Below, in pieces: positions 10,292 to 46,930 of a stretch of 64,000 bases of DNA (the stretch's first letter is position 1; the number at the start of each line of letters is the position of its first letter). The notes below the pieces were generated by a model. It worked only from the letters and a program-made list of their open reading frames with translations, was not told the DNA's origin and made no database searches. The position numbers and the translations under genes were made by a program. The stretch is from Scleroderma bovista (Eukaryota > Basidiomycota > Agaricomycetes > Boletales > Sclerodermataceae), in contig JAYMGJ010000026.1 in NCBI GenBank assembly GCA_037178675.1, forward strand, positions 19,556 to 83,555, given 5' to 3'.

Positions 10292-10434
10292 TGCATAGTA
10301 TTTGTTCATAACTTGTGCTATATTTTTGTGTTGTGTACGATAGCTGACATGAAATCCATGTGTTGATGTTGATGCTTGATATTCATTCCCATGCAGAAGG
10401 CAAATAGTTGTCATCAATGATCATTTTGGTAATT

Positions 10435-10460
10435 GATTTAGTATACATGTATGCTAAATC
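10435..10460. repeat. Palindrome copy downstream of the gene
   Basis: Arms GATTTAGTATAC and GTATGCTAAATC around AT pair with one mismatch. It lies 144 nt after the stop codon of the 6.5-10.3 kb gene. It is the last copy seen in the window. Confidence 0.9.
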
Positions 10461-10587
10461 TAAGAAGAACTGGACAACACCTGAGAATTTTTCTTTACCA
10501 CAACTTCTTTCACTTCAAGCACATGGGGTTCCTTTTTGGGTCATCAAAACCACATGGCATCACACTGCCATGGTCTCCATCTAGTGC

Positions 10588-10696
10588 TACTATAGAAAGG
10601 TGGTGGTTTGCACAGGGCAGGTCTAGCCTAAAGGAAGGGAGAAGGAGGAGATCTGTAGGTAACCTCAGTATGCTGGCAAGCTACTGAGGGAACTAA
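10588..10696. repeat. Dispersed repeat, copy 1 (partner at 56192-56296)
   Basis: Begins TACTATAGAAAGGTGGTGG and ends CTACTGAGGGAACTA. It matches 56192-56296 over almost its whole length with scattered substitutions and small indels. A related motif, CCTCAGTAGATGTTCAAGCT, occurs twice further on (about 11746 and 11842). Probably part of a transposon or solo LTR; the family was not recognised. Confidence 0.65.
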
Positions 10697-10699
10697 GGT

Positions 10700-13220: not shown

Positions 13221-13225
13221 TTCTC

Positions 13226-17339: not shown

Positions 17340-17605
17340 TTCACTGCAATATCCCATGTTTCAGTTTTTCCCACCCTTGGCACCACTTTTGAGCGGTTCC
17401 CACGGCCTCTAGGCCCAGTTTCTTTGCACGCATGAATAGGCCTCAGAGGCCCTTCCAGATTTTGAGGGTTCCTGCCAATCCCAAAGATGGATGGCCCTTC
17501 TCCGTGAGCATTTTCACCGATACTCCGCTATCTACTGGGATAATCCTGTGCACCTCGCGTGACCTTTTTATGAGCCTCACGCAGACTTAACCTCCTCGTT
17601 ATGAG

Positions 17606-17890
17606 GGTGTCATTATCCATCGCGTGACGGTTTTCGAACAGTATTCCAACCATTCACGGATGCTTTGACCTTCTGTTTCTTTTGGATTAGCAGTACTTTC
17701 CGTAGTACAAGGTATTTCATATGTTTTCCAGAATGGTTTCAACATCATCTTGAGGGTGTTATTATCCGTCGTGTGATGGTTTCTAAACCATGTCTTGACC
17801 ACGGACAGAGGCTCGGATCTTCTGTTTCTTCTTTAATTTGCTGGACTTTTCGCACTCCTAAGTGATATGTTTTCCGGATTGAATTGAGCG
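17606..17890. repeat. Diverged tandem duplication (~140-bp unit)
   Basis: Two units, about 17606-17745 and 17750-17885. Both begin GAGGGTGT(C/T)ATTATCC, contain CTTCTGTTTCTT in the middle and end ATATGTTTTCC(A/G)GA. Minus-strand frames are open across both, but no protein family was recognised. 17360-17600 between the transposase and this repeat shows nothing recognisable. Confidence 0.6.
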
Positions 17891-18066
17891 CTGCGCTAAA
17901 TATAAGTCCTGGAACCTTTGATTGATCGCACTGCAACCTCTACATAACATACATGGTATAGGATGTAAGACATCAATTCGGGTGCACCGTAGGAGGCGCG
18001 AGAGCGCACATGAAAAGAGAATCGGAAAGTGGCGCGCACGCAAAGTAACTGAAGTAGTCCGTTAGA

Positions 18067-21000
18067 TCAAGCATTCTGTTGGGTATCCTGGTGTTGCACT
18101 TCCTTGTCACCTCCGGTATCGTTTTGAGGGCGTGCACCGAGTAAGGGGGCTGCATGGCCATCTGGATGCGAGACAATACCAGCACGCGGTTGAGGAGGGG
18201 GGGGAGGATAGTATGGATGGTGTGGATGGCCTGGATAGGAAGAGTACGAGTCATTCACACCATTATAATATGTATCGTGATATCGCGATACGTTAGGGTC
18301 GCCAGGTGCTGCATGCTCCGACTGAGGATGGAATGGAGGGCCATGAGGGTTGCCAGGAGGGTATGGATGATGGTAGTGCGCTGGGATGTATGGCATTGGC
18401 GGGTAGGGTCCGTGCCGTGGAGGGTACCAGCCAGTGTTGTACTTTGTGGAGCCGTCCCCTTGGCTTACATCTGGCTGCGGTGGGTAGAATGGATATACAC
18501 CTGGCCCAGTGTGTGGCTCAGGAAGGCGCTCAGGTGGCGGCGGAGGACGTGCAAACGGATTGGCAGCGTCGTACGATGTACTGGGAGGATTGGGGGAGCG
18601 TGTCTCTTGATGACCAGACACCTCCAATGACGGTTGTCGGTCAGAACGAACTCCCGGTATCAAAGCTTGAGCCGGACCAATAAGACCTTCCTCTGCAGCC
18701 ACAAGCCGCGCAGATGTGGTGGATACGGTAGTCATTTCCTCGACAGCGGCGGGGCCAGTCAGATAGATTCTTGAACGCATGTTGAATGCGTTGTCAGTAT
18801 CGGATCGTTGTGCGCCACCTGATGCGTTGTGCACTACTCTGGGCTTCGGACGTTGATTCTGGCCACCCGAGCTGTTAGAATGAGTTTCGGGCGGGCGGGC
18901 AGCTTGGCCTGGCACTGAAATGACTGTCACTGACAGTCCAATGATGAACGAATAATAACTCACACATCTGGACATCCTTTGGATGGTGAGTGGCCGCTTC
19001 GGTTCCTTTCCACTCAACCTCTCCAGGTACTGCTGTCGTTTCATTCTCTAAGGTGGAAGGCTGTCTGGGAGGAGCATCGGAACTAGGTGCTGGTATAGGG
19101 CATGGCTGCGACAGAGCCACCGAATACGATATGGGTTTGATGAGATCCTCCGACGTCGCTGAAATGAGTTCAGTTGCACGAAACGCAATGGTAAGATGGG
19201 GTATACGTACCGCGAGTCTTAGACGATACCTGAGGGCGCGAGACAGCAGTATAAAATGGTAGGTCCTCAGCTGAAGAGGCTTCGAAGGCAGGCACTGGTT
19301 GTGTATGGTGCTCTGAAGTCTGATCATCTGCCTCCGCACCTAACGGCTGAGCGTCCTGCTTAGAAGACAGTTGCTTGGATTGCACTGAAGGCACCTTGCG
19401 TGCAACGTCTTGGTGTAGTGCAGGACCCTCATCCGAGGGTGGCGGGGAGGTTGGGAGACGACGAATGGTTCGCTTCCGGCCAACTGCCAGAGCAGGCTGC
19501 TTGCCTTTCGATGACTTGACCGGTGGTCGCTCTTCATCGAGTTCTTCCGCAGCAACTTTCTTGGCCTTTCGGGCAGGGGGAGTAACCTTTGGCTTGCGTT
19601 TGCGTGATGTCGACGCTTGCTCATATTCCGTCTCTGCAGAACTAGCCTCCGAATCCAGAGTCCCTCCGTCGCTGCCTTTGATTTTGACGTCATCCTTTGG
19701 CTTGTAGCTCGATGTAGGCGAAGACATGGAGCCGCTCGAAAGTGAGATAACCGAAGGTTGTTTCTTCGATGGATCGGATGAAAATATTCGAACATGCTTG
19801 TGAGGGTAGGTAGGACGGTTCTGTATGTGATGCAAATTCGGCTTGGTATCTTCTGGAACATCCACGTCCGAGTCGTCGATTATAAGTGCCTCAGGGCTAT
19901 TTTTGGCCACGGCCTTATTTTTCTTCACCACCCGGGTTGCTGCCTTGTTCTGGAGGTGCCTGGGGCCCTCCCGATCAGTCTTGAGATTGCAGAACATCCG
20001 TTTGCCTCGAGGGTGGTGAGAATCATACGGAGGCGCAGCGCCTATTATCACGGGTTCCTCGGAACTGATTAGCGCTGCTGTGTAACTGTCAGCATAATTG
20101 TGGCATTTGGCACAAAATACATTACACACTTTTATGTGAAACACGTCGGATGCGCAGGCCAGTCTTGCCTGGATCATTCAAGGCTGCTATGAGCTTTGAA
20201 CACTCTGAACGGCTAAGGTCAGAGATGCCTTTGGGCACGCTACGGGAGGCAGGTTCCTCGCCTGGAAACATCACACCCTCTGGCCAGTTAACTAAAACTA
20301 GTCCAGATGATGCCAAACGGGGAAGCATCTGTTTCCAGGGGAAAAGCTTGCCAGATCCCCATGATTGGCCATGGTCCTCTGTTATAATGTTAGTAGGATG
20401 GGTTTAACAGAGTAGTATGACGTACCGAACAAGCCACGCAAGCGGAGTTTGACCTGGTCGTGATCCTCTCTGTCATCGGAGCCAGGCTGGGTAGACCTGT
20501 CCCTCGGATTAGATATTTCCTCCACTTCACTGGCACTGTCGTTCTTTGCCGAGTCCACGCCGTCAAAGGCCTGCTCTATCGCCTGCAATGATTCATGATT
20601 GCTATATTTACCGATTAACAAACAGTAGACTGCTTTATGATGAACTCACTAGATGTGCGCCTTAAAATGAGCAAGGATCTGCTCATCATTTGCTCGACAA
20701 CGTTCAGCAAAAAACTTTGACACACTTTAACATCTTAATGATTCAGTAATTCAGAGGACATACCTTCTCTGCACCAGGTGTTGTAAATACATGTCCAACT
20801 CCACCATCTTGGTTGACAACTCCCCCAGCAAGAAGATAGGCACCTTCAAAGCCATGCGCTTTGCTCACTGCAAAGAACTAAAAAGCATTTTTAAGTAGAA
20901 TCCACAGGGTAAACAAATAGCAACGTACAGTGTGATTGAGGTCCTTTATGGTCTTATCGAAGAGTTGCCGCCGCTGGGCAACTGTGCCCCCCATGTTCTC

Positions 21001-25904: not shown

Positions 25905-28900
25905 CCTAATGTCTTTCTTCCAGGATGTTCGATCAGCGAGGCTGTCAAAAAGGAATATTTGCTTGAATGAAAAATCGATGGTGCATACGACCCAGTGGCC
26001 AATGCAGGACGGTCTGTGGATCGGGAGGATCCATATGTCCTTCTCCCAGTATCGGGTCCACGAGATATTTCGCCAAAGAACATCATCAGCTGCATTATAG
26101 CGAGCACGTGGTAAGTCGTGAGTTGAGAGGATGGCACATCACTGGGCATCAGGGGAGAGGAAAGCAGAATATAGAAGGCTTCCGCAGCCGTTAATACACG
26201 TATCGTCCAGGCGCGCATTTGCTGTAGAAAGCAGTCTAATATGGTCTGGCTCGAATGTCTGTCGGGGAAACCCGTCGCAAGCAGGTCGAATGTATCGGGT
26301 GATCGTAGCACACGGATAGCAGGTCGTGGTAGTGGAAATGTCGATGTTCAAATCAACCCGGAGCGGCTAGGGAAATATGGTTAGCGACTTCCAGGCAAAT
26401 ATCATGCACTCACCGATGGGATTTGCCAGTCCAGCGATATTGTCATGGGCTCCACCTCCTCCTCATCCTTGTTGACCAGTAAATCGATGTTGTTACCTTC
26501 GTTCTCGAGAAGGTGATCTGTCAGCGCAATCTCGCCTAGGTCTTCAGGTTCAGCATCCAATATTGTGTCTTGGTCACCAGCCTCTGAAACATGGCCGTCA
26601 GACGGTAGCTCACATACGACAGGGCTAAGCCACTGTAATGCATGTGGGATTGGAGTTCCGGAAAGGGAGGCTGCAAGCTCAGATGCGGCACGAGCCTCAC
26701 CAGTATAACGGACGATGGAGGCAAGAGGGTTTGGCCACCGTTCTTGTAAAGTCGATATATATTCATGCCGTTGCTTCAGAATGAGGTAATATATAGAATC
26801 TAAAATGAAGTTCGAAGTTACGAACAGAAATAACGAAGCACTGGAACTTACGTTGTGGTTGTTGCAATGCAAATTCGACCGCACAAAGTTCGCGCCCAAA
26901 CCACCGGCACATATTATCGGCTTCCATCCCAAGCCGACATTGTTCTTCATGGCAACGGTCTAACTTGAGAAGGGCTCGAATCCCTGATCTAACATCACGA
27001 TCCCCAAGCCATAATGGGGTTTCGCCCTCAGGTGACCGTGTGATCCAAACGTCTTCGAGAAGCGTCTGGTCATTACGGAGTTCCGCCAGCTTGGTCGGGA
27101 GGGGTGTCGGTAGCGGTATGGCGTATGTTGGATTGTACAGTTCCTCGAGGCGAGCACAGTAACTATTGAATTTACCTATAGCAGACATCAATGCTGGCTG
27201 TCGTTTGGCGATAGCCTTGCGTGTCTGCTGGTGGAGTTTCGTGCCTGGGATCCACTGTCAAGAAGGCCAACCTAACTTCAAAAGAGCCTACCTAATGCCT
27301 TCTGTTTCCCACCGACGGCGCGATCGAGTTTGTCCCACTCGAAGAAACTTCCTATTGCCCGCTTACGGATGTTGATTTTCAGATCGCGAGCAAGGAGAAG
27401 GGTTTGTACGAACTCAAAGCCGACGCCATCTAAGTCGGGAAACCTCACCGGAATGTCCAGCGAGGAATAAAGAGCGTCGACTTTGCATAACAGTTGCTCA
27501 TGACCGTGTTCGAGGCTCGCCAGAGCATCACGGGCACCTTGGGATGCTGGACCTCTGTCAAGCATGACGCGGATTTTTTGTAACACTTTGTCGGAACTAT
27601 CAAGCTCAGCTTGTAGAACAAGAACGGCATCGAGTTCTTTCTTCAGTCGAATGGGTGCATCTGCAGCAGAGTTTTAGTTCATGAGTCCGCCGCTGTAAAC
27701 TCATAGTGACGTACGCGCTCTGATAGAGAGCTGAGCAGAACGTTGATCCGACCATTGCTTACGAAGTTCCACAGCGCCAAGCTCGCATTGGTCTAGACCC
27801 TCCTGTGCAGCAGAACCTTGCTCCTCAATACCTTTTTTGAGCCGGCGCCTGAGCCAATCTCCAAGGTCAGCAACCATCTCTTTGGCAACAGCGCCAGCAT
27901 GACGATCGATGAGCCAAATGCGGCGTTGGCGCTGGAAATAATAATGTGAGACAATCATAATAGTCTAATTATATTGACCTACTGAAGATGCGCGCTGGAT
28001 ACCGATAAGCTTGATGAAACGCGACCACAACCTCTCCGTGCCTTCACCATCTGACAAGCCCAAACCTTGGATAAGTCGAGGGTTATAGACGAGCTGGCAT
28101 GCCCACTCGTGCCCATAAGCATGCATTGCAGTCGTAGCAAAGCGGATGCGGGAGGTGATAAACGGACTGAGAATACTATACTGGGAATTGTTAATAGAAC
28201 CCAATCAAATGAGGGATGTATATGTACCTTCATCAGTGAGCGTGCCAGCACACACCCAATGTCGTACAGTACGACAACATTGCACCCGAGAGGGATAAGA
28301 GAAAAGAAGTGTTCGATCAGCGCCACACTATATTTTTGTTGCTCACCAGGAGTGTGGATGTTCGCGAAGAACAGAGGGATGTCATGGCGACAGATGAGCG
28401 CCATGATGCCGGTATCATCGAAGCTATCCATAGCCGCCTTCTGCTTCTTGCCGTCTGCTGCTTCGTACGAGGTTTCACATTGGTCGACCGCTTCGTCAGG
28501 TACAGCAACTTTGTATTGTTGTGGAGGATGCTTGCGTGCAGCATTGATTCGTTTGCTGGCTTCATCGACCTGCAATTTAGGAAGGAAGTAGATGGGATCA
28601 TAAAACAGTGGGCAGTCTCCTGCGGAACATCGATGCCAATGGTGAAAGTTCCCATCCATGGCGACATGGACATCCCCACCACTATCCAAGGGCCGCCCAA
28701 AATCTTGACCACCAAAGCACGCAGGGCATCGTTGCACTAGGATCGGTGCACAGAAACCTCGCGTAAGGGCTAGGTTGTTCTTGGTTGGCGAAGATGAAGG
28801 CGATGCGAGAGACGAAGATTCTGGAGGTACCTTGGCAGCGAGGGTAATGTCCCGGCACTCTTGCAGTATCTTGTCTACAGAGTTCTCTATCTCAACTTGT

Positions 28901-30117: not shown

Positions 30118-31902
30118 CTACCGAAAACTAGTGCCTGAGGTGGCGATGGCCGACTGACTGTCCGAATGCAAAGGCGTCGGATGCACGAGCGGGTGGAAAA
30201 CTTCTTCGACGAGTCGGCGGAGCCAAATCCCTTCCTTGGCAGCGTGCGTGGCAGCGACATATTCGGCTTCTGTAGTCAAGAGAGTGACTAACTCCTGTTT
30301 CTTCGACGCCCAGCTGACGGCTCCTCCGTCAAGGATGTACGCATACCCTGAGATCGCGTGGCGATGTTCTTGGCTCGCTCCGTCTGCGTCAGTAAAGCCC
30401 TCGAGACCCTGCTTACCCGCTCCGAAAGTAAGTGCCAGTCTCTTCGTACCCAACAGATACCTGTAGATGCGCTTGACAGCTTCCCAGTGCTCGGGTCCAG
30501 GATCCTGAGAGAACTGAGCGACGGTTGAGACAGCGAAGGCGATGTCGGGACGAGTGGCGACGGCCAAGTACATGAGCGAGCCCACAGCTGCCCTGTATGG
30601 AATACTCTTCATGCGAGCGGTATCAGCGATGGACATGGGACGGGTGCGCGATAGTTGGACGTTGGGATCCATAGGAATCGAGATGGGCTTAAGGTCAGAG
30701 AAATTGTACTTAGCGATGATGGCGTCAATATAAGGCTCTTGAGACAGGGAGACGGTCCGGATGACGCGATCTCGGACGACCTTCATGCCTAGTACCCAGC
30801 TGATTGGGCCTAAGTCAGTAATCTTGTACCTAGCCCGGATCTCGTCCTTGAACAGACCCATAAGTTCGCGTGAGCTTCCAGTGAGCGTGCAATCGTCAAC
30901 GTGGCTCGCGAGAATGAGTGTATCGCGTCCGATATGAGCGTAGAACACTCCCCAGTCCGAATGCGCACGCTTAAGTCCGAGTTCTCTAAGTGACCCGCAG
31001 AGCTCTAAGTACCACCTCAAAGCTCCTTGCTTCGAACCGTAGAGGGCGACTCGGAGTTTCGCGACGGCGTTGTAACCAGGTGGGAGCTCCATATACAGAT
31101 CTTTGCCCTTGTCTAATTTCCCATTCAGGAACGCGCTCTGGAAGTCGAACACGTCAACGTCCCAGTCGTTTCGGGCGGCGATAGCGAGGATTGTGCGTAG
31201 GGAAGAGAGTCGAGCCACAGGTGCGTAAGTCTCGTCGTAGTCAACGCCCTGAACCTGTGAGTAACCCTTCGCTACGAGGCGTGCCTTATACTTATCGATC
31301 TCCCCGGCAGCATTCCTCTTTATCTTGAACACCCATTTGCATCCGATAACGTTCACGCCCTTCGGGCACTCGATGACGTCCCATGTGCGTGCAGCCTCGA
31401 GACTGGTGAGTTCTTTTGAGATCGCCTCCTCCCACTTCGCCCAGTCGGGTCTCGCGCGCGCCTCGTCGATCGTCGATGGATCAAGGCCTTCCGCCTCGCT
31501 GACCCTCGCAACCATAGCATAGACAAGGTCATCATCATCTGGTGACTCCCCCTCGCTCCTGCCTCCATGCAGTACCTCTGAGAGCGCTGCTGTAGGAGTT
31601 TCCTTGGATTGCTTGCCGTCAACCGTTCCTTCGCCTTCGCGCAATCACCTGAAGTATTCCGACTCGAAGCGTTGACGTGTGGAGCGACGTGGAAGTGGTT
31701 GAGGATCGGGACTCTCGAAGTTGGGGCCAAGATGGTCTGTGTTGGCATTGGAAAGCGCAGGTGCAGGTGCGTTGTCTGCTGTCTCTGAAGGCAATGCGAG
31801 CTGATTGTCCGTGCGTGGTGGGCTCTCGACACTCTCGATGCGTGAGCTCTCGACGCTGACGGCCTTTTGTTGCTCCCCCTGCACGCTTCTCGGTCTGACC
31901 AC
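30118..31902 (-). pseudogene. Ty1/copia pol fragment: reverse transcriptase + RNase H
   Basis: A single long frame, broken only by a TGA at 31645-31647, with copia-type motifs. These are WVFKIKRNAAGEIDKYKARLV... at the RT start, FQSAFLNG, LYGSKQGALRW, ASHVDDC (RT active site Asp-Asp), GSLMYLAVATRPDIAF and the RNase H TEAEYVA and SDSQSAI. Gag, protease and integrase are absent: the left end of the coding part starts in the variable linker before RT (~31902). The right end stops inside RNase H at ~30118. No LTRs are visible. The 31.9-kb edge abuts the duplicated segment starting at ~31895. Confidence 0.9.
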
Positions 31903-34282: not shown

Positions 34283-35545
34283 ATGAATCCACGAGGCATG
34301 GACGAATCAACAACAGACGACGATAATGCATCCCAGACGACTGAAGATGACCCGCAAATACCCGCACCTGCACTTGTTCATTTCACCCAGCAGTTCCGCC
34401 GCCACCTCCCGGTGCACAGATCCAAGCTGCTCCACGCGAAAGACCGAACTACAGACTGCGACATACACTCAGGGGACATACCCAGTCTGTATCTGCAGTC
34501 AAGTTTAGTCCTGACGGGACCCTTCTCGCTTCGTGTGGTACGTTCGAATGCTTGAGCTTCTTGTGTGTGGAGTTGCTCACGTCTTGTGATATGTTTCGCG
34601 ACACATGTAGCTGCGGACAATGTTATCAAAATATGGTCGCCTCTCACAGGAGAACTGATCCGCAACCTCAGTGGGCACACAAAGGGTCTCTCAGACATCT
34701 CATGGTCGAGCGATGGGACATACCTGGCTTCCGCATCGGACGATACAAGTATACGAATATGGAACGTCGAAACTGTACGTTCGTCTCTACTACCCATGTA
34801 TAGCCCATGGAAATGATCGGTGTGGCCCTCAGGGCTTGACAAGAAAACATCTACGGGGACGTACAAGTTTCGTGTTCTGCGTCAACTACAACACTGCGTC
34901 GACCTTATTAGTCTCCAGTGGGCGGGAAGGCGACGTGCGTATATGGAACATCGCCAGAGGCATTTTCATGTGGTCTTCCCTTTGGATCGAGAATGCTCAT
35001 GGTTACAGGAAAATGCATTAAAACACTTAATGCCCATCTCGACTACGTCACTGCCGTGCACTCCAATCGCGACGCATCCCTGATCATGTCGTGCTCTCTT
35101 GATAGGTTAATGTACGTCCCTTTTGGCTTTATCCATCCCCTGTCGTAGAACCTGCGATAACCATGTGCAGACGGATATGGAACACAAACGACAGGGCAAT
35201 GTCTCAAGACCTTTGCAGAGGGACACAACGCTGTATGGTGTGCCCCGTTCTTCCTCCACGTCACGCTGATAGACCCCGCCCAACCACAAATCCTAGCCAA
35301 CATGTCCAATTTTCTCCCAACTTAGAATACATTCTGTCGACTGCCCACGACAGCGCGATCGAGCTGTGGGACTACCACACTTCGCGTTGCCTCAAGACAT
35401 ACATTGGGCCACCGCAACGAGAAATGTTGCATCGCTGCCTGTTTCAGTGTCACAGGAAGAAAATGGATTGTCTGTGGGTAGTGAAGATAATAAGGTGTAC
35501 ATTCGGGATTTGCAGAGTAAAGAAGTTGTGCAAATGAATAAATCC
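34283..35545 (+). pseudogene. WDR5/Swd3-like WD40 gene, copy A, frameshifted and truncated
   Basis: Encodes a beta-propeller like the WDR5/Swd3 subunit of COMPASS histone methyltransferase complexes. Recognisable blades: YRLRHTLRGHTQSVSAVKF with SPDGTLLASC (~34450-34535), VIKIWSPLTGELIRNLSGHT (~34620), [68 protein letters not shown] and VYIRDLQSKEVVQ. Introns interrupt between blades. Frame changes near 34380, 35190 and 35410 break the frame, and the last blade is missing where the sequence meets an NLR fragment at ~35545-35570. The gene starts divergently from the HNH gene remnant, sharing a ~350-bp intergenic region. Confidence 0.8.
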
Positions 35546-35559
35546 CCCGTACATTTTTG

Positions 35560-36226
35560 TACTGCAGCGCGATGGTGCGAGTGATGGCAGATTTCCCCCT
35601 GCCGGCCTGGCCGTAAAGCCAGAAGATCCGCAGCACATGAAACGGTTGGGATCGTTAATCCAATCAATGATTTCTTTCAAAATTTCCACCCTCGTTCCAT
35701 CCATGCATTTCTTTCTTGTATCAACCCCCGCCGCCATCTGCATACACCATACCATCTAGGCTCAGATCCTCGAGGATATCGAGGACACGATGTACGTTGA
35801 CGTGCGTGTCACGTATGGCACGATCGCGGAATTCTTGCATCAAGTCATCCAACGCCTTGTTGCATTCGTCAACGACGGACTGTGATTCGGAAAGAATATT
35901 CTTTGTGGCTCGTTTCCCTGAGATGATACCTAGTTAGAAGAGGGTTATGGAAGTATTCGGCGTGGCGTACAGAAGTTCTTGGTTTCGGCAGTTTTCAATA
36001 AACTGGACATAGCTACTGACCACCTGGGCGATGCGCGCCAGTGTATCTTTCATCGTATCCAGGTTGGCCTTGGTATCCTCGTCAAGTAGGAACTCGTAAA
36101 CACTTTGAATCTTTGAAAGTAGGCTGGAGACCGAGTTGTCTAGGTTTGCTTGCCTGATGTCATCACCTGACAGTGATGTGAGATGCATGAGCCAACCAGA
36201 AGGCGCACCTGGGCGGCACCGGTGAG
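35560..36226 (-). pseudogene. NLR (NACHT) gene fragment, downstream part
   Basis: Minus strand. Helical N-terminal-type segment DNSVSSLLSKIQSVYEFLLD (~36140), then FRDRAIRDTHVNVHRVL, KCMDGTRVEILKEIIDWIND and the NACHT P-loop WLYGQAGRGKSAI (~35600). This is the layout of fungal STAND/NLR immune-type receptors. The sequence stops right after the P-loop, where it abuts the WD40 pseudogene on the other strand. The upstream part of the same gene lies at 45385-46013; a 9158-bp transposon separates them. Confidence 0.85.
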
Positions 36227-36406
36227 TATGACGCTGCAACTGTAACAAAATAAAATGCGGAATTTAAATCGACAGCGCGGAATTTTGGTCTGTCCCAGTG
36301 CGGAATTTCACTCAACAGTGCGTCAGTGCGGAATTTTCAGTCGAGTCAGTGCGGAATTTCCAGTCATTGTCACCGCAGAAATTTATATTCTGCATATATA
36401 ATTGTC
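36227..36406 (+). repeat. Left terminal inverted repeat
   Basis: About 180 bp. Holds five copies of GCGGAATTT spaced 20-35 nt, the last three in the form AGTGCGGAATTT. Ends near ATATAATTGTCA. Confidence 0.9.
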
Positions 36407-36409
36407 ACT

Positions 36410-37900
36410 CGAACTACGTACGGACAACTACACGGGATACACATGTTCTCTGTAGTAAAGCAATGAAATGGCCAGGGATAACTTTAGACATGCTGCTGCC
36501 GTGTGGCAAACACTTGATTATCGAGGATGAGCTACCTAGATCCTGTGTCTGAGCATCTGCTTATCCAGATGAGGCTCAGCAACATTGTTCAGTGATCTGC
36601 AAGTGGTGGCTGGCTGGCCGTCATGTCTTCGTCGTCTTCGTCAGTATGCCCAAGTAAGGTTGGTTGCTGTCATATCCCTCTTTGAGGCCGAGGTCATAGC
36701 TGTTCAGTTGTCCCCCATGTGTTCAAGCAATGTCGTAATCGATCTTGTCATCGTGCCCATCCTTGTTGTCATCGTGCCTATCGTCATCCATTCCCCCTCA
36801 TTGTCGGGTCGTCATTACTGGAAACGTCAGTTCTATTATGTTCGGCAATCGGTATTTTTTTTCTTTCCTGGCAGCCGATACCAGCTGAAGGGGAAGGGAA
36901 GTCAGCGGGTATACAGGAGTGAAGGAGTGAAGGATCGATACATGCGCACTGTTGTGTGTGGCCTTGGGCATGGTAAGTGGAAAGCTTTGAACGAGAGCGC
37001 AGTCAACAGGACCTCATCTACACAAAGAGAGACAACACGGAGGACGACAAAGAAACTACAAATGATGAGACAGATGGTCAGGTAGAAACACTTAGAGTGG
37101 TGGGGTGGTCGTGGTGTTAGCGGATGTCATTGTCGTTGTCGTATGGCGTTGTAGGTCAGTGCGATAGTGGCAGTGGTGGTGTTGGTGACCGTGTCACGTC
37201 CCAAGTCGATGGTGTACGGCTAGTTGAAGAGAGTCAATGCGTCGGTCAAGATTAGCAATTGCGAGACGACAACGTACCTGTGTCCCCTCGTGCACGGGTG
37301 ATCGTGGTGGCACGTTGTCATCGTTTCGCGTAATGTTCCACGTCAACAGTGGCCGTACGTGGGCGTCGTTGTCGTCAGGCGTGCCTCTGCAGGTGGGCGT
37401 CGTCGGGGTCGTCCGGACACTGGACAAAAAATGTGCGGTTGTGTAACAAGAAGCATCACGTGCTGGGTGCGCAATCAGCGCCAGCCAGGCTGACTCGACC
37501 AAAGAACAACTGATCTGCGTGAGAGGCCTCTCAGTGACAGAACCATCTGTGAGATCATTCGAGACAATGTGTATGACACCTCTAAAACAGCTCTAGTCTC
37601 ATGTGCTATCTAAATTAAGATCATGGAAAGTAACATAGCTAAGATTGACTCCACCAACGAAATAATCATCCGACCATGAGTTAATGGATGGGACAGTGGT
37701 ATCTGGATCAATGAGAGAACCAAATGGACTGATTAACTTAATGAATTCATGAGGAAGACCAACGCGTAGAGGGGCAGTGCTGGTGACTACTAAGTAAGAG
37801 GTCCCATTGAATGACTTTTGCTTACCCAGCTATGTTCCTCTCTCTCTTTGCTCGTGGGGAGACAGATAACTCTTTCATGTAGTCAGGAAGCGAAGCATCC
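36410..37900. other. Low-complexity interior of the transposon
   Basis: No convincing gene. 37080-37440 is rich in GTGGT/GTCGT runs, similar in style to 43320-43850 near the other end. The frame 36585-37085 (plus) is open but its composition is simple (Val/Ile runs, then Lys/Arg/Thr) and no motif is seen. Confidence 0.4.
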
Positions 37901-37924
37901 AAGTATTCACTATTCAACCGGAGG

Positions 37925-39230
37925 AAAACTGTAAAGATGTTCTGAGTCAGCATGGCAGAGAATCAAAAGTCTAATAAAACGTACATGGCTGGTTGCTTGA
38001 CCCTTCCACAAATTCAGGCTTCAAGTCCTCAGAGGGACTTGCAACGGGGGTATCGGAATCATCTGAAATGGATATAACTTCACCTTTGAGCCGTTTGGCC
38101 ATTGGTTGATCTGGATGGATGAAGTTAGTTTGCCTAACTAGAATGAACTGATGTACTCTTATATGATTGTTGTGTCCATTTTTGTGGCGTTGTATAGCTT
38201 TCATCATCAGTACTCTCAAGGTCATCCACTGGAGGCTTATAGTTTGGGTCCCAGGACGCAAATACTTCTTCGGGAATGGGGGTTCGAAGGGCTGTGGAAG
38301 AATTCCATAAAGGGAGATAGCATTATATCAATGGACTATACGTACCAATGATCACATTTGTTGTTGCTACTGAAGGCTTTGAACTCCCCCGAAAGAAGTG
38401 TAGTTGTTTCCCGCCGGGATTCTCCGTCGTCACAAGGTGATAATGGTGTTTCTCTTTGCTAATCAACATCCATAGACACTCCGAATCTGCATTTTTCCCC
38501 TTGTTGAGAGAAGTGACATAAGCAAATGGCCGTGGAAAGATGTTTTCGAAGAAAGCATTAGCCTGTAGGTGCGTCCAATCCTTGCGGAGGTCGTACGCTT
38601 CTGCAGCATCGTCAAAGTAGGCACACCCGCGCTTTTCCAGCATCTCTCTCTCGACTCGGTTCAAACATGTTGTATGCGTCAAAGCACTGCCAGTCCTCTA
38701 TATTCATGTTTAGTAGGTATTCCTGTAGTCCCAATCAACTTACATTTAGAAAATTGATGAGAACCATCAACGAGCCAACTCGGAACACGTTGGGATCCGC
38801 CTGCTTCTGCTTGGAGGGTACTCGCTGTGTTGAGCTCCCAGCATGATTCTAATATATTGTCATGTAAGTGGCAACCTACGCATAATGAAGCAACCTAAAT
38901 TACCTTTGTTGGTTTGGAAGGTACACGTTGTGTGCCACGACCAGGGCGATATGCTCCGAGGACTTCATTGCGTACTGCGGATTCGAAGCGACCACCACCC
39001 CATGAGGCCTGAGTTTGTCGCGAGTTGATGAGGTCGAGTATCCTTTGCTCAGAGTCCTGTTCCGCTTTCACCGTAGTACCAGCTCTAATATGTTTGCTGT
39101 ATCCGTGGCCACATTCCCGGCAACAGTATGCTGCGTTGCTCTCGACAGGCGGTGTGAATAATTCACATTTGCACCGGGTCCCATTTTCAAGGAAGTCACG
39201 GCAATATTGCTCTCCTGGCTCTGACATCAA
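37925..39230 (-). CDS. Unknown Cys-rich protein carried by the transposon
   Basis: Starts MMSEPGEQYC at 39230. The first exon has a metal-site-like pattern C-x9-C-x-C then CCREC..GYSKH, suggesting a small zinc-binding module. Later exons give FDDAAEAYDLRKDWTHLQAN and FFENIFPRPFAYVTSLNKGK, then LWMLISKEKHHYHLVTTENP and FFRGSSKP (38682-38345). A Ser/Asp/Glu-rich C-terminal part follows (EVISISDDSD) near 38060. Introns with GT..AG ends occur at about 38745-38700, 38345-38290, 38205-38115 and 37985-37935. I do not recognise the family. Position between the inverted repeats and the intact frame suggest an integral gene of the element. Exon limits in the 3' half are approximate. Confidence 0.55.
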
Positions 39231-39379
39231 AAACGTCTGCTGAATGTCGAGACTGGCATAAGAGTGTCAAGCTGAAGTATTAGGTAGAGCAGAAAGGACG
39301 AGACAGTTCAAATGTCAAGCGAAACATCCACTTTAAATTTATGCTCGGCTAATCACAGTGAATTACATGTTCTACCAAA

Positions 39380-41411
39380 CTATGCAGTGAAATGGTGTCT
39401 AGTCTCAAACGCAGTAAATGTAGCAAGGGCCTGGCACCAGATTTTTGCCCGTGTTGCCCATACTGGCTCTGCTAATGATATAGTGACAAACCGTGTACCA
39501 CGTTGACCAATTGGAATGTATTCTGTCGCTGGCTCTCCGTCTTCTTCAGCAAACTCCTCTGGCAACAACCCATATCCTGTTGGTGCAATGTCTTCAAGTA
39601 TTACACACTCTAGCACGGACCAAAATTCAGCCTCATCTTGGGCACATGCAAAGGGCGATCTATTGTGCGGGACTTCCACTGCTTGGTGATGGACCTGGTT
39701 CTGCAGGTCAGCTTCAAGTCTTTGTAGAATACCATCACGTCGGTCCACAGCGTCGTTGTCATCATCCAACCCTGGGTCCTCGTCAGGAGGATGTCCTGCA
39801 CCAGTCTGGCCATGCCGAGGGATCCGTTCATGTCCATCAACACCATAATATCGTTCAATTGTCAGGGGGTGGATCCTAACACAGTCATCCTGGTACTCCC
39901 CTAGCATAACACAACTGATGAGACGTAAATCCTTGGTATCGCAAAAATCCAGTACGATCCATCACATAAATGATACAACAGCGTACCTGTGGAGATTTAT
40001 TATTTGTCATGGGCCCACTGATGGGATGGATGTTCCACTCTTCTTGAAACTCCTCGCAATCAGTGTTGATGGCGCCGAGAAAAAGTTTTTGAATGAGCCA
40101 CAGGTGGTTCCTATTCTCAACATCAAGCCGGTGACGCCTTTCACACCGAACAAAAAAGCCCCGCCATCGGCGAGCAAATTGAGTTCCAACTTCAATCCAC
40201 AGGCGCTCGATCCTCGAGTTTCGCGTCGACCTGCAGTACAGACATCAAAAAGTAACCACGAACAATAGTAACGATTAACTTACGATCCCCACAAGAATGA
40301 TCCACGGTTGGGACCCCGCCTGGCCACCACATACATAGCTACATTGATGTTTTCGCCCCCTCGATCACCTCTCATGCGCGACGGCATACCATATTTTGCT
40401 TTTGCATCGAGGAATAAGTTGAGGACTGTTGACGCATAGTTGTTCGTACTCGCTCGTAAGCCAGTGATCTTAAGAAAGTTAGCAACACGACCTGCCAGTG
40501 TGCAGATACACACCGTTCGACAGTAGCCGTCAATGATTCCGTGAATCACAAATCCCCATCGGATGAGTTTGTGATGTCCGTCAACATGCCAGAGTGCATT
40601 TGACCTTGCGACGCGATATACCCTGCGTTGAATAGCACGGCGCTCTCGTAAACGCTGACCCAACCTGTCCACTCGACGCAACGACCTCCATATCCGCTTT
40701 TGTTGAACTCGAATCCCGTGACGCCATAAGTGCCCAAGTAAATAACGGAAGCCGGACTCTGGTTTGCGCTTCTTGAATGCCTTCACGAGGACGTCCAGCT
40801 CGTCATCGCTTATCAAAGTGTAGCTCCACTTCAGGTCATGTTTCCGCATGGTTCGCCAAAGCGTCATGCGGCTAACTCCAAGGATACGGGCGAGTTCACT
40901 GAGATTAATGTGATGGCTATTGTTCGTAATAGCCTCAGTGAGGAAGTCAAGGCAAACGGACTTCTGAGGTCGTCCTCGCCAACCATTCTGGAGTTCTATT
41001 ACAAGTTCAGGAATACTAACACCTTGCTGTTCACTACGCAATATATCAGCACCGCTCCTTAACAGATAAATGGGAAAACTGGACGAACAGCATGTTAACG
41101 ACATGCGCCATATCCTGGAGATCTTGCACTGCCTGTCCAAAGAGCCTTGCAGCATCCATTAACCATTCGTGAGGCAGAGACTCATCCTCATGGATGGTGC
41201 CAATGGGGATAAGTGCTTCAAGGATAGGAAGGGCTGTTGAAGTGAGTGCATCAACATGGAATGAGACGCGAATGGGATCGGGAAGCCCATCAGATCGGAG
41301 GACGTCAAGGGCTTGTTCATATGTTCTCTTCATGATTTCATGAGTGGCACAGATATCAGCTGGCCATCCGTTACGGTGCCATGGAAGGGGAGGAAATAGG
41401 GTGGTGGCCAT
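39380..41411 (-). CDS. Integrase-fold (rve) DDE transposase of the 9.2-kb element
   Basis: Probably cuts and joins the element ends. ATG at 41411 (MATTLFPPLPWHRNG). Helical N-terminal part, then a helix-turn-helix-like stretch NLSELARILGVSRMTLWRTM (~40900). The catalytic core has WHVDGHHKLIRWG (first Asp, ~40585), GIIDGYCR (second Asp region), MPSRMRGDRGGENINVA (~40360) and, after an intron near 40280-40230, RIERLW with the likely catalytic Glu (~40185). The C-terminal part includes FQEEWNIHP, an intron near 39995-39930, GYGLLPEEF and RFVTISLAEPVW. The first two coding blocks (to ~41090, and from ~41065) are in different frames, so a short intron or a frameshift lies there. The family resembles rve-type transposases of eukaryotic IS3EU elements rather than retroviral or copia integrases. 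Confidence 0.75.
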
Positions 41412-41773
41412 GTCTAAGTAGTACCAACTTGCTGAAGCTGATATAAGCAAGCCACTCTTAACCAGTATCCAAAAGGTCGCAACGCTGAGGAGTGAACAAG
41501 TGAACAAAGGATGGGGAAAATAACCCGGAGGACTACTTGTTCTCCACTAACTGCGTTGAAACGTTTCCCTACCACACATCTTATGCCTGGTGTTCGGAAG
41601 GGTTTTTCCATTTCACCCCCTGTGAAACCCGACACACATCCTTCACCGGTGCATTCGAACGACTTGCTACATGGTGGTAAGGGTGTGAAGAGTATACCTT
41701 CAAAGTCCTGCGACTGATATTTTGAAGAAAAACACTGGGATATTCTCAAGATCCTTGATGAAGCCCAAGAAGA

Positions 41774-42962
41774 ATGCTTTGTGGTAGGCCAGAACGATTC
41801 CATCGTTTCAAGGAGTTGACGGATAGTCGAGCACAGCTGGAAGGTGTATCCTTCACCGATTACATACATATCTTGACCCAGTTGGAAACTGATGGGTATA
41901 AGAAAGCATGGAAGAGGTGCGCTACTGATCAGTGTTATCACACGCATTCGATGACTAAACGCCCTATCTCAACTTCAGTTTATCCTTTTTCTCAAACCTC
42001 CAATGCCTGATGATCTCATCTCCCACTGCCGCTCACGAATCTATTTTGACTGCTATTATCTGGCAGCTTAGCAGTGTTCTTGCCACTATCCCCCTCCCCA
42101 AAGGCATCCTTACTTACCGAACCCATGGCAACAGGCATATCCAAGGCCAAACAATATGCGGTATCCCAGATCTAACGATAATGATGGTCACCGAGGGCGG
42201 TCTCGAAGATCGACCCATTTGGTTGATGGAGAGCGCTTTTTCTCAAAGTGATGCTGATGTCATGGAGAAACTGCGTGCTTACATCGAAGATCACCCAGAT
42301 TTATTGGTCGTTGGCAAGGTTCTCCTTAAGCAGAATGGGAAGTACTCCAGCCCTGGCGCAAACGGCTCTCTTGCGACAAGCCTTCGCTCTTCAGAGCTAT
42401 TGTCGCGGAGAAAGTGGAGGGGTAGCCTTGGGGTCGATGAATTTGCGCACGTGGACATCGATCATCACATTTGGTTTTCCCTCTCTTCCGTCGAAATCCA
42501 TTTATGGATCCGTCAGGCCAGCGGGTTGGATATAGATCGTAAGGATGGCGATGGGTATGCATTCGGGGTGCGTTGGTTATTTTGTGGAAATATGTGACTG
42601 ACCACAGTGTACTCTAGACACTTTATCCCATTGTCAATATTTCCAGTATTGACGACACTTTTCTGCGGGGCCTTGCGCTTGTTAAGGAGGCCGCTCTCCG
42701 TGAGCTAGAGATCACCCCTGACAGCCAGGATTTTTACAATCATATGAAAACTTGGTCGCCCCCTCCTTCTTTCTTTGATCTAGATGCGTTGAAGACTGCC
42801 CTCGTGAATGGTGCATGGGCGACAGCCTATGGTCGTTATTTCCAATGGTACAAGGATCAAGTGAAAAAGCCCTACAATATAACGCACGATCGCTCTTGCA
42901 GCAAGTCCAGCCATGGGTCTCGTGGTGTAAGTATCCCGATCGAACTTTGTGAATTCGTCTAA
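41774..42962 (+). CDS. PD-(D/E)XK-like hypothetical protein in the transposon
   Basis: Relative of the gene at 235-1790. Proposed first exon 41774-41914 (MLCGRPERFHRF...), then an intron ending CTTCAG at ~41976. The next exon has HESILTAIIWQL, ICGIPDLTIMMV, PIWLMESAFSQSDADV and HPDLLVVGKVLLKQ. Later parts are HIWFSLSSVEIHLWIRQASG and, after an intron near 42567-42645, VKEAALRELEITPDS. The PDL...ESA spacing suggests a PD-(D/E)XK fold with an altered last residue; nuclease activity is unproven. It matches the 235-1790 protein in order: PDL, AFS(E/Q), an I/V-rich strand, then a W.S....(V/I)..W.R segment. The frame seems usable but the N-terminus is uncertain. Confidence 0.55.
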
Positions 42963-42974
42963 CTTGATTGCAGC

Positions 42975-44140
42975 TTCGTGAACACGCATAAAATCTGAAC
43001 TGCACACATTTTTTTGTTCTTTTTCACGTACATACACTGAGTTGCTACTTGTATTTCTGTCGTCCATCATTGATCGGTCATCCATCATGTACAATATATG
43101 TTGTGTTGAAGCTAAAGTCTGTTTGTACACACCAACTCCTACCAACGCTAATGACAGAACCTGTGTTCTCATACATCGCGGCTCAACTCGTCAATGCCCA
43201 TCGGGCCGGGCCCATGATGGACTTGCTGACTGGTTAGCAGTCAAAGGAGAGACCGGCAGCAAAGAAACTACAAACGACGCACATTTGAAATGTCATCCAT
43301 AGTTGCCATCTTCGTGGAGGTATGGTGGTGGTGGTGGTGGTGGTCGCCATGTGTGGTTTGGGTGGCCATCGTCGTCGTGTAGAGGTGCCAGTGGGGGGAA
43401 CATCATCATTGCACCGCTGGCTGGACATTGGTAGTGGAGGGGTCGCTATGGCGCCTGTTGCACGATGTTGGTCATGCTTTGGTGTGTACTGGGGCGTCGT
43501 CAGTTTGGTAATACGATCGAGGTTGGTGGTGGCAGTGAAGTGCTTGTACCGGAGACGGTCATCGTTGTCCCTCTGAAAGCTGGAGTGGACGCTGTGGTTC
43601 TCGTCGTGCAGGTGGTGGAAATAGTAGGGGAAGTCGTGGCCGTGCAGGGAGGGTGGCGTCGTGTTGACGTGCCACGGCAGCCATAGTCGTATAGTGGGCG
43701 TTGGCGTTGTCTGGCCCTGCGAGTTATCATTGTGCTGTGGTGGTAATAGTCGTCAACATTGGGGTGCTGGTCTAATTGTCTTCGTTGAGGCACAGGCACT
43801 GGTGATGGTCACCGTGTCGTCTTCGTCTTGAGCTTGTGGTCGTGTGGGATAGCTGGCCTTGACTAATTGGGGCCATCAAGCAGAGCTGTGCCGTCTCATC
43901 AGTCTCGAGAACTGGTGAGAAAGCTGGTGATGCGTTAGTAATGGTGATAGGTAGTGTAGGGACTTACGAGTGCAGGCGTCGTGGTCATGGCCGTGGGCGG
44001 TGGTAGTGGTCACAGTGATGGCGAACGGTAGAGCGCGGGGTGAGATACAAACGAAGTGACGTCGTCATGTGACACCCCGTGAGCAAAGCCTGCGACAAAT
44101 ATTAACAAATAGTCAGTGTTCCTTTGCAATAGCACCAGCT
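42975..44140. other. GT-rich low-complexity DNA in the transposon
   Basis: 43320-43345 is a (GTG)n run, and up to ~43850 the strand is rich in GTGGTGGT, GTCGTCGT and GTGGCAGTGG. Open frames here are translated simple sequence on both strands. Nothing gene-like is visible before the BTB gene. Confidence 0.5.
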
Positions 44141-44151
44141 CGTTCCAAAAA

Positions 44152-45141
44152 ATGATGCCTGCTCCTCGACACCATCAAATGTTCTATTATTTTGATGGCA
44201 CGCATGTAATCCAGGTTAGTTACCTCTCTTCTTCTATTCATTGCTTTTTCTAATGGCATTCCACAGATTGAAAACATACTTTTCAAAGTCCACAGCAGTG
44301 TCCTTTCAGACAAATCCCTCCTTTTCAAGGACATGTTTGAGGTCAGCCAGGATCACAGGCTCGTCCAGACCGAAGGAAGTAGTGACGAGGACCCAATCCT
44401 CTTCGAGGGCATCATGGTGGAAAGCTTTGAGTTGTTTCTCTCGGTTCTATATGACAAGTAAGTCACTTAACGAACGAACATTTTCATGTCATGAAAACAC
44501 TTGGTATTAGGTGGCGCCCAGATTCTGCGAGAATGTCGGATGAAACGGTGGTCCAGCTCCTTGAGCTGAGTCAGAAGTTTCAGTCAAAGTCCGCTCGAGA
44601 ACACGCCCTGAAACGCTTCCAAAGCCATCTCTGGCATATGTCCCCCCCAAAATTAGTCTCGATCTCGCTCAAGTACCAAGTCAAGGACATCTTCGAATAT
44701 GCATTCAACCGGCTCATTCGATTGCACATGAATGATTTAGACTCCAATGTTCTTACCGTCCCTGTCTGGATGACTCTGGCCATGGTGAAGGAACGGCTTG
44801 ATCTTCATCGCCGCATTGTTGCATGTGAGCCTCCACCGATGGTGCACTCGGAGCGCTGTCGCGACCAGAAGACTTGTAATGATGATTGGAGGCAGGTCTG
44901 GTGGAACGGCATGGGAAGATTTTTGCTTGATGGACGTAATTCTCTTTCATTCGATGACGCGATGCGACTGTTCCAGGAATTTGAGTATGGGTCTGTTTTC
45001 CGGGATTGCTGGAAACAAATGCTTGATTTTTGTAAACAGGGGAAAGTGTTCGCTCATGAACGCAAACTCATTAACAACACCTGCCAGGAGTTGGCGAGTC
45101 ATCTTATCAAGGAGCCTGCATTTGATGGTGTATGTACATAG
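44152..45141 (+). CDS. BTB/POZ-domain protein carried by the transposon
   Basis: Exons 44152-44214, 44267-44457 and 44511-45141 (introns 52 and 53 nt, GT..AG) give an intact frame of ~294 residues. The N-terminal BTB/POZ fold reads FYYFDGTHVIQIEN, ILFKVHSSVLSDKSLLFKDM, then LFEGIMVESFELFLSVLYD. The remainder is helical (VVQLLELSQKFQSKSAREHA, VPVWMTLAMVKERL) with a small Cys/Asp segment CRDQKTCNDDW. Fungal BTB proteins of this shape commonly act as protein-interaction modules, for example as Cul3 adaptors, but the role here is unknown. The stop codon lies 18 nt from the right inverted repeat, so the gene is probably integral to the element. Confidence 0.75.
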
Positions 45142-45158
45142 TTCAAGGACCTGTGGAT

Positions 45159-45384
45159 GACAATTATATACTATGGCAGAATATAAATTTCTGCGGTGAC
45201 AATGACTGGAAATTCCGCACTGACTCGACTGAAAATCCCGCACTGGACTTCAAATTCCGCACTGACTCGACTGAAAATTCCGCACTGACGCACTGTTGAG
45301 TGAAATTCCGCACTGGGACAGACCAAAATTCCGCGCTGTCGATTTAAATTCCGCATTTTATTTTGTTACAGTTGCAGCGTCATA
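45159..45384 (-). repeat. Right terminal inverted repeat
   Basis: About 226 bp, the reverse complement of the left repeat. It has seven copies of the GCGGAATTT motif (one GCGGGATTT). The extra length is one additional ~42-bp tandem block inserted after the fourth motif. Confidence 0.9.
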
Positions 45385-46013
45385 GGTGAGAAGCCCCAGT
45401 GCCATCTGAGCGTAAGGGTGGACCTGTGTATAAATTCAGCCTGCTTATCACTTCAAGGAAAGTACATTTGCAATGGTACTAACTACGGTGTTGAGAGCCT
45501 TGAGTGGTTCGAGGTACGTCGAGCTGATGGCGTCTATTTGAGAGACGGTACTAGTGTTGATCCCACCGACAAGGTCAACAACGTTGCGTCTTGCGCAGCA
45601 CGAGAGGTAGTAGGTACTAGTGCATCGGGCTCTTTTTGGGCAGCATCGATCTTGTCACGCACCGTCATAGGAGCGACTGCCTGGTCCACTGTGCTTGTTG
45701 GCGCGAGCGGCTATTTTGTAGACGAGCGGGTCAGCAACTCCACGGTTTTAGATCCGCTTGAATAAATGCACTCACACTCATAGAGTACTCGCGATCGTTT
45801 GATTGGAACGATTACACGCGGGAATAACTTCTTCAATATCTCCAGTTTCCCCGTGGCGATGTCAAAGTTGTCAGTGGATCTCGCAGATGTGACTTGAGTT
45901 CCTGTCCTCACGTTTCGTCGCCGTGGTCGTGCTCTCGGTTTCCTCTGTACCTTTGTTTTTCCTCGTGTATCCCGTAGCATGGGGGTGTTTGCCGTGGTCG
46001 CGTGCTTGCTCAT
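45385..46013 (-). pseudogene. NLR gene fragment, upstream (N-terminal) part
   Basis: Minus strand from the ATG at 46013 (MSKHATTANTPML), through a basic segment RKPRARPRRRN and a later block VAPMTVRDKIDAAQKE, to AISSTYLEPLKALNTVV. After an intron ending near 45418 comes VHPYAQMALGLL, where the transposon begins. This is the common N-terminal region that precedes NACHT in mushroom NLRs. It continues in frame at 36226. With the P-loop truncation at 35570, the gene is certainly non-functional. Confidence 0.75.
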
Positions 46014-46930
46014 TCAACTCGCTTCACGCTCTAGTCTTCACATTCGTTGCGTCGCCCTGCACAAATCGCTGTCCTTTTGTCTCGCGTCTTCGCGTGTCGT
46101 TCCTCGTCGACAGCGTCAGCTGTCCTCGCGTTCGTCGTGTCTTTTTCTCGCTTTGTGTCGCTCTTGGTTTGCAGCGTTTGCACCTGTAGCGTCGTGGTGG
46201 CATCCTTTGTGGAGTCTCCTCGTTGTAGTTTTCATCCACGGTGTGGATTTTGTCGGGCCATCAGTTGTTTCGCACCGGTCACCCGTCACATGTATGATGT
46301 CGTTCGCAGTGTTCTGGTCGCGTCGTTCTTGGAGTCTTCGCATCGCACACCGTTTAGTGGCCTCACCTTCTGCTCTCCTCGTTTTTCGTGCCTTTTGTTT
46401 GGGGTTCTTCTCATTCTCTCACGTATGTATTCTGTCTCGCATCTCTTGTCTTTCGTCCTGTCTGTCATGCCGCAACGTCCACTCGGGTGAAGGGAGCGAC
46501 TCGAACACACAGTCGGCCGCTGTGCTTCGCGTCCTTTGTCTCTGCGTCTTCCGTCTTACTCTTCTCGTTGTATTGTTGGATGTGTCCCGTTGAGGGGGCG
46601 TGTTGGAAGTCAACGGGCGCGTACATCAGATTCACTGTTTCGTTTATTGTTGTTGACAGCCGTTGAACGTTACTGTAACGTTGATTCTCAACACTGGGTG
46701 CATAGCTCCAAGCTGTCATGCCCACCTGTCTTGATAGTCGTGCAAAGATCAAAAATGATCACAATCATGTCACTCGAGGGGATCTCCCCTGATTGTAATT
46801 TCCATAGGTGCTGAAAGTGTACGTGTACACCCATGGCTGATAGGCGACAAACAACGTAGGTATCCTCAATTGCACCGAGGCACGTAAGCATATGGACGAT
46901 CCTGGGGTGGGTCGTCGCCTCGGAGACAAC
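46014..46930 (+). other. Possible 3' end of a retroelement (PPT and LTR start)
   Basis: 46590-46600 reads TTGAGGGGGCG, a polypurine tract, followed at 46601 by TGTTGGAAGTCAACGGG, which looks like the first bases of an LTR. The LTR is cut off within ~100-300 bp. 46020-46590 is pyrimidine- and CGT-rich; its long plus-strand frame is rich in Ser/Leu/Arg/Val and has no motif. 46690-46920 has weak minus-strand similarity to a kinase N-lobe (HPRIVHMLTCLGAIED), too short to call. Confidence 0.4.

Follow-up and report, generated by a model that had tools for sequence, protein, structure and literature searches.

What are three genes other than a transposase doing inside a DNA transposon? The question is raised by a 9.2-kb element at positions 36227-45384 of a 64,000-nucleotide stretch of the Scleroderma bovista genome (G000:C26:19556-83555, here called the window), where it interrupts the coding sequence of an NLR-like gene. 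Besides its transposase the element holds a BTB gene, a PD-(D/E)XK-fold gene and a Cys-rich gene. The assembly is 51.8 Mb in 850 contigs, and all genome-wide counts below refer to this one genome. Our answer, to which we give a probability of about 0.7, is that this is a multi-gene DNA transposon of the IS3EU type, whose BTB gene accompanies the transposase lineage across the genome and has a putative adaptor role. The evidence suggests that BTB is a long-standing partner of the IS3EU-type transposase, not a chance passenger.

The element ends in inverted repeats, as an earlier note on this DNA had reported, with lengths of ∼167 bp on the left (36227..36393, plus strand, starting TATGACGCTGCAACTGTAACAAAAT) and ∼209 bp on the right (45176..45384, minus strand, ending ...GCGTCATA) that replace its figures of ∼180 and 226 bp. 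They are made up of two pairs of matched blocks, 36227-36365 with 45246-45384 (139 nt, 99%) and 36324-36393 with 45176-45245 (70 nt, 99%). The termini read TATGAC..GTCATA, and the 6-bp duplication GGTGAG was found where it had been claimed, directly outside them, at 36221..36226 and again, identically, at 45385..45390. The transposase gene fits a five-exon model on the minus strand (39395..41411; exons 41411-41089, 41033-40514, 40468-40284, 40230-39987 and 39931-39395). Its product has a helix-turn-helix domain and a PF24764 integrase core (E = 9e-34) with the full set of conserved DDE residues, D259, D316 and E351, 34 residues separating D and E; the predicted rve-type DDE transposase is thus present. 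IS3EU elements are described as having TA..TA ends and, usually, 6-bp duplications (PMC10045372, accessible text). The window element has TA..TA termini, a 6-bp duplication and an integrase-type DDE transposase, and its assignment to IS3EU follows the accessible text of that published description, not Repbase entries.

The BTB gene is on the plus strand (44155..45141; exons 44155-44214, 44267-44457 and 44511-45141, the start placed by inspection). Its identification is upheld by a PF00651 match of 37 bits against a cut-off of 20.5 (E = 4.2e-9); no MATH or Kelch domain appeared in a Pfam scan of the protein. The closest named relatives are from Scleroderma citrinum, followed by Pisolithus and Suillus. 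When viral contigs were scanned once with the BTB alignment, no relative was confirmed, and plasmids had no match in a near search. The structure model (P0002) has a pLDDT of 85.8, and Foldseek matches to it had E-values of 3.4e-5 to 9.3e-4, with a best target TM of 0.68 to 3htm. Each of the 50 listed matches is a Cul3 adaptor of either SPOP or KBTBD kind. As modeled, the protein has a BTB fold and succeeding helices like those of SPOP and KBTBD proteins. Invariant columns of the BTB alignment are mainly C-terminal (E193, H199, C203, D212, W213, W218 and N219), in a conserved region with C, H and W residues that was considered as a substrate-binding domain and has no assigned fold. Elsewhere in the genome, a cluster of weak BTB matches at C124:5022-19911 has no transposase within 6 kb and perhaps consists of host genes.

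Association of these genes was scored on locus sets merged from transposase, BTB, nuclease and Cys-rich searches. Because the searches scored best candidates only, the resulting counts are lower bounds: at least 24 transposase, 38 BTB, 50 nuclease and 5 Cys-rich loci. In a first pass, 15 of the 24 transposase loci had a BTB locus within 6 kb, against 0.24 expected from an even spread of BTB loci. Profiles run on the window and 18 other stretches added BTB at C192 (a 32-residue fragment at the contig start), C267a, C539 and C799, and a scan of nine more stretches added C673, bringing the total to 20/24. Transposase loci without BTB include C61, where the transposase is partial and BTB is ∼8 kb away, and C647, at a contig end. 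BTB and transposase were on opposite strands at 19 of the 20 loci, and in 11 of 11 groups when a single locus stood for each group. Some loci are close copies of each other (C206/C517/C546/C573; C267a/C799; C676/C237; C202a/C219, with transposases at 93%), and C507 and C688 had identical scores. Nuclease loci were within 6 kb at 7/24 transposase loci (0.31 expected) and Cys-rich loci at 5/24 (0.03 expected), the latter taking in all five Cys-rich loci found.

Gene arrangement differs among the elements. At C206, C517, C546 and C573, transposase and BTB genes stand head to head; common sequence extends for ∼3.35 kb between C206 and C546 and for 4.3 kb between C517 and C546. C206, C546 and C573 have GCGTCATA, the octamer of the window element, at one end, and C517 reads GTGTCATA there. 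A second end was looked for in this family and not found, and no nuclease match occurred in the 10 kb read at C206 and C546. At C676 and C237 we find a transposase, a divergent BTB gene (BTB1), a nuclease gene, a Cys-rich gene and a second BTB gene (BTB2) at one end. The C676 element occupies 8892-18742 and has long interrupted inverted ends (ACACTGCAAGC... in this family); no 6-bp duplication was seen at the boundaries tried by eye. Its BTB genes are at 9523-10406 and 14935-15153, and C237 has counterparts; in each case one gene adjoins the transposase and the other is at an element end. The window element and a second copy of it at C309 have the transposase, the Cys-rich gene, a single BTB gene near the right end, and the nuclease gene between transposase and BTB; a profile scan of the window gave no second BTB. 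The window BTB is 48% identical to BTB2 of C676 vs 27% to BTB1, so the window element is a relative of the C676 type without BTB1, its BTB2 being placed at the opposite end. In these elements the nuclease gene and the Cys-rich gene are the optional part. The word cargo, applied by the earlier note to all three genes, is too loose for BTB, a near-constant partner of the transposase (20/24).

BTB genes have also diverged in step with the transposases beside them. Across nine loci, pairwise identities of the transposases and of their neighboring BTB proteins were correlated at r = 0.79 (35 pairs, 0/5000 permutations as high), and at r = 0.77 (1/5000) when the window element was added, in a set that held the close relatives C202a and C219. 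With C219 left out the values were 0.74 (27 pairs, 27/5000) and, with the window element, 0.70 (10/5000). The signal stands, though it is weaker than the first run suggested.

The second copy, at C309:24108-43537, contains all four genes and is colinear with the entire window element, aligning to window 36661-45384 at 92.2% over 8771 columns; the first 0.4 kb corresponds to C309 24107-24542 at 83%. A 10.3-kb insertion with ends CATCAGGAATTT..AAATTCCTGATG is nested within this copy at C309:24543-34888. At C623:5735-7785 there is a third copy, represented by a left piece at 90%. The proposal that these genes are an integral part of the element is borne out by the colinearity of C309 across all four genes and by the clustering of homologs of these genes with other IS3EU-type transposases. 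Differences between window and C309 were fewer in assigned coding segments (215/4490 sites) than in the remainder (328/4516 sites; P = 1e-6). The ratio of nonsynonymous to synonymous rates (dN/dS) was 0.30 for BTB (11/1000 neutral simulations as low), 0.39 for the nuclease gene without its 5′ exons, whose 30 codons were too few (41/1000), and 0.46 for the transposase (34/1000), a modest signal that would indicate constraint on element genes. The BTB gene of C309 has neither indel nor stop.

The PD-(D/E)XK-fold gene (41858..42923, plus strand; exons 41858-41916, 41979-42567 and 42618-42923) has a model that is incomplete at the 5′ end. Its description as PD-(D/E)XK-like is sustained by residues and, through a homolog, by fold; the window protein itself has no Pfam match. 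Across the family the acidic pair and lysine are nearly always present (D53 in 44/48 members, E73 in 45/48, K86 in 46/48), and the window protein has D, E and K. A restriction endonuclease-like fold is supported on a homolog of the window protein, and we regard the product as a predicted nuclease. A Pfam scan of the family at E 0.1 gave matches in just 2 of 48 members, both at chance level, and the family profile found no match among PDB sequences. A distant family member (58 bits, family profile) was noted outside the element, at window ∼677-1375 on the minus strand. The Cys-rich gene (38030..39230, minus strand) has segments near 38898-39230, 38335-38658 and 38030-38255, with approximate splice sites. 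As a gene it is backed by homologous segments in C309, C192, C676 and C237, and its protein has no Pfam match. Two of its exons gave dN/dS of 0.40 (148/1000) and 0.66 (362/1000). Rfam at gathering threshold gave no match in 36000-45600.

A search for the 25-base terminus, allowing at most 3 mismatches, gave 18 occurrences in the genome, against 0 for a reversed control. The terminus was found in C26, C309 and C623, and it adjoins the BTB genes of C507, C688 and C275. Five non-autonomous elements have it at both ends. Four are ∼1 kb long: C384:107094-108096 and C838:17256-18258, both with the exact 6-bp duplication ctgcct and apparently one duplicated insertion; C815:18901-19911, with ctagcc; and C416:6334-7274, which like the fifth, a 3.1-kb element in C177, has no exact duplication. 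The three of five with duplications confirm that such ends are mobile and produce 6-bp duplications. Profiles of the transposase, BTB and nuclease had no match in any of the five. The earlier note had held that copies with the same ends but without the three genes would speak for chance nesting, and here the outcome is mixed: elements with similar ends and no profile match exist, and the sequence they have in common with the window element is limited to 24 terminal bases, so they are probably non-autonomous relatives of a sister family rather than emptied copies of the window type.

Several observations weigh against our reading. C309 is not flanked by a matching 6-bp duplication (left tctatg, right tggcaa), and because it has 174 bp of left flank in common with C623, at least one of these two copies was probably duplicated or rearranged after insertion. 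In C309 a 1-bp insertion and stops are present in the transposase and a 5-bp deletion in the nuclease gene, so that among the copies found the exons are open throughout the models in the window copy alone. BTB was not found in ∼5 kb upstream of the C202b transposase, and C447 has at most a BTB trace (9.7 bits, excluded from the count); conversely, stronger BTB matches at C774, C251, C759 and C61 have no transposase within 6 kb. The co-divergence weakens once near-duplicates are thinned, and the dN/dS signals are individually weak, uncorrected for multiple tests and drawn from one copy pair. The first Cys-rich exon, at 0.94 (704/1000), gives no signal of constraint. The nuclease model gave no significant Foldseek match (best E 0.086). 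Finally, 43 of the 50 nuclease-family loci have no IS3EU-type transposase within 6 kb, and the nuclease gene may for that reason belong to a wider family.

The decayed C309 genes, the unconstrained Cys-rich exon and the scattered nuclease loci are what one would expect if three unrelated host genes had been picked up accidentally by an IS3EU element, with no use in transposition and bound to decay. We consider this improbable, given BTB near 20 of 24 transposase loci and on the opposite strand at 19 of those 20, the co-divergence (r 0.74-0.79), the BTB dN/dS of 0.30, and the fact that every one of the five Cys-rich loci found adjoins such a transposase; for BTB taken singly, we reject a simple passenger on linkage, opposite-strand arrangement and co-divergence. 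Fungal repeats do nest, as C309 with its own 10.3-kb insertion illustrates, and the element could in principle be a chance nest of several small transposons. That this is so here is scarcely credible: window and C309 are colinear end to end, the same kinds of genes are present at C676 and C237, C676 has long inverted ends of its own, and a repeat search of 35500-46500 lists, apart from the ends, no more than three weak inverted pairs (70-75%) plus a further one that overlaps them. We reject this artefact on the colinearity and on the C676 ends.

Two other explanations give BTB a function of a different kind. It might serve transposition directly, as a dimerizing scaffold or transposase partner, with no relation to Cul3 or host silencing. 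The C206/C546 type yields transposase and BTB only, head to head, as partner proteins would be, and the invariant BTB columns are mainly in the C-terminal part; set against this, all 50 of the listed Foldseek matches are to Cul3 adaptors (SPOP and KBTBD kinds), and we hold a purely direct role to be unlikely, though a serious contender. Alternatively, the host might keep the element for a useful BTB and nuclease module, for instance in defense against other mobile DNA. One element does combine nuclease-fold and adaptor-fold genes, and the C309 BTB is free of indels and stops despite a broken transposase. Such a benefit seems very unlikely, with the insertion disrupting an NLR-like gene and BTB tracking the transposase from locus to locus as a transposon's own gene would.

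The host gene is on the minus strand, with its part downstream of the insertion at 35322..36226 and its upstream part at 45391..45911, where homology to C101 covers ∼520 bp. The flanks, joined with a single GGTGAG, align to G000:C101:31841-32216 at 99% across 376/376 bases, and among 32 matches to the joined flanks 27 cross the junction; the other five are one-sided, two of them being the window itself. The empty site in C101 reads ...VHPYAQMALGLLTGAAQ..., identical to the joined flanks, and filling it changes it to ...GLLTYDAATVTK-stop. Removal of the element restores the host frame, as claimed: C101 and the joined flanks both translate to ALGLLTGAAQ, and the filled exon to ALGLLTYDAATVTK-stop. 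Homology to C101 runs for 2204 columns at 94.4% and ends ∼520 bp past the insertion on one side (its other limit is close to the limit of the fetched DNA), so C101 is probably a paralogous empty site, not an allele. The claim that the host is an NLR gene stands as to insertion in a host frame; the NLR identity comes from a large paralog family and P-loop matches that are all sub-threshold (AAA_16, E 0.0013; NPHP3_N, E 0.007; NACHT, E 0.07). Nearby in the window, both on the minus strand, are a KDZ transposase fragment (27979-28737; PF18758, E 6e-27) and a reverse transcriptase (30118-31644; RVT_2, E 4e-58), which we take to be of Copia type.

The nearest known systems are other IS3EU elements. 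The element resembles IS3EU (with GingerRoot) in its TA..TA termini, 6-bp target duplication and integrase-type DDE transposase, and differs in its BTB, PD-(D/E)XK and Cys-rich genes, which were not seen in the accessible text of PMC10045372. The idea of a new class of element, based on IS3EU carrying little besides transposase, does not survive comparison with the TET+ IS3EU of rust fungi and Tuber indicum, where a TET/JBP gene lies between the transposase and an opposite-strand alpha-kinase gene (Kojima 2025, PMC12730594, accessible text); extra genes in IS3EU are thus already known. Those elements, which in rusts end in TAYGG..CCRTA according to the same text, likewise have extra genes in a fixed order, and their alpha-kinase gene is opposite to the transposase, as BTB is here; their extra genes are TET/JBP and alpha-kinase, and BTB occurs 0 times in that paper. 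From the BTB-Cul3 adaptors SPOP, KBTBD2 and KBTBD4, whose BTB fold and following helices it shares as modeled, the window BTB differs in having no MATH or Kelch domain in Pfam, a conserved C/H/W C-terminal region of its own, and a transposon as its source. The window nuclease, compared with DUF820-kind restriction endonuclease-like proteins (3ot2, 1wdj, 6okh, 9y1l), is eukaryotic, intron-bearing and transposase-linked. Helitron-encoded deubiquitinases (VTD) are, in the accessible text of PMC9741609, another case of transposon-borne ubiquitin-pathway proteins; there it is a protease inside the Helitron open reading frame, here a BTB adaptor-like protein. Within the accessible open literature, with subscription papers and Repbase reports outside its scope, we found, judging from search listings and passages of text, no paper connecting BTB with IS3EU or with a transposase of fungi. 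Three of the texts mention BTB only as an abundant Pfam category (PMC7550596), as a Rhizopus gene domain (PMC3864998) and as an expanded family removed from a transposon library (PMC11075540). What is new relative to the literature searched is the BTB partnership with IS3EU.

The element inserted into the NLR-like coding sequence and duplicated 6 bp, and its transposase would act on the terminal repeats. We propose that the transposon encodes, in its BTB protein, an adaptor that, going by its modeled fold, may dock on the host Cul3 ubiquitin ligase. The target marked by BTB-Cul3 would then be a protein of the host, most probably one that restrains the transposon through silencing or repair, or BTB might regulate the transposase. 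The PD-(D/E)XK and Cys-rich proteins would be optional helpers acting on DNA. Tentatively, and with less confidence than in the reading as a whole, we suggest that this fungal IS3EU lineage is a two-gene machine, a transposase plus a divergently transcribed BTB that redirects Cul3 against host restraint, to which larger members add the nuclease and Cys-rich module. If so, a transposon-encoded ubiquitin-ligase adaptor would have been kept through the diversification of the family. Few transposons carry a means of handling host control; in fungi, the TET/JBP gene is the known case of this type. Co-divergence of BTB over ∼8 distinct lineages in one genome makes it a candidate either for a transposition cofactor or for a ubiquitin-based means of countering host control, and some of the numerous BTB genes in mushroom genomes may belong to transposons, not to the host.

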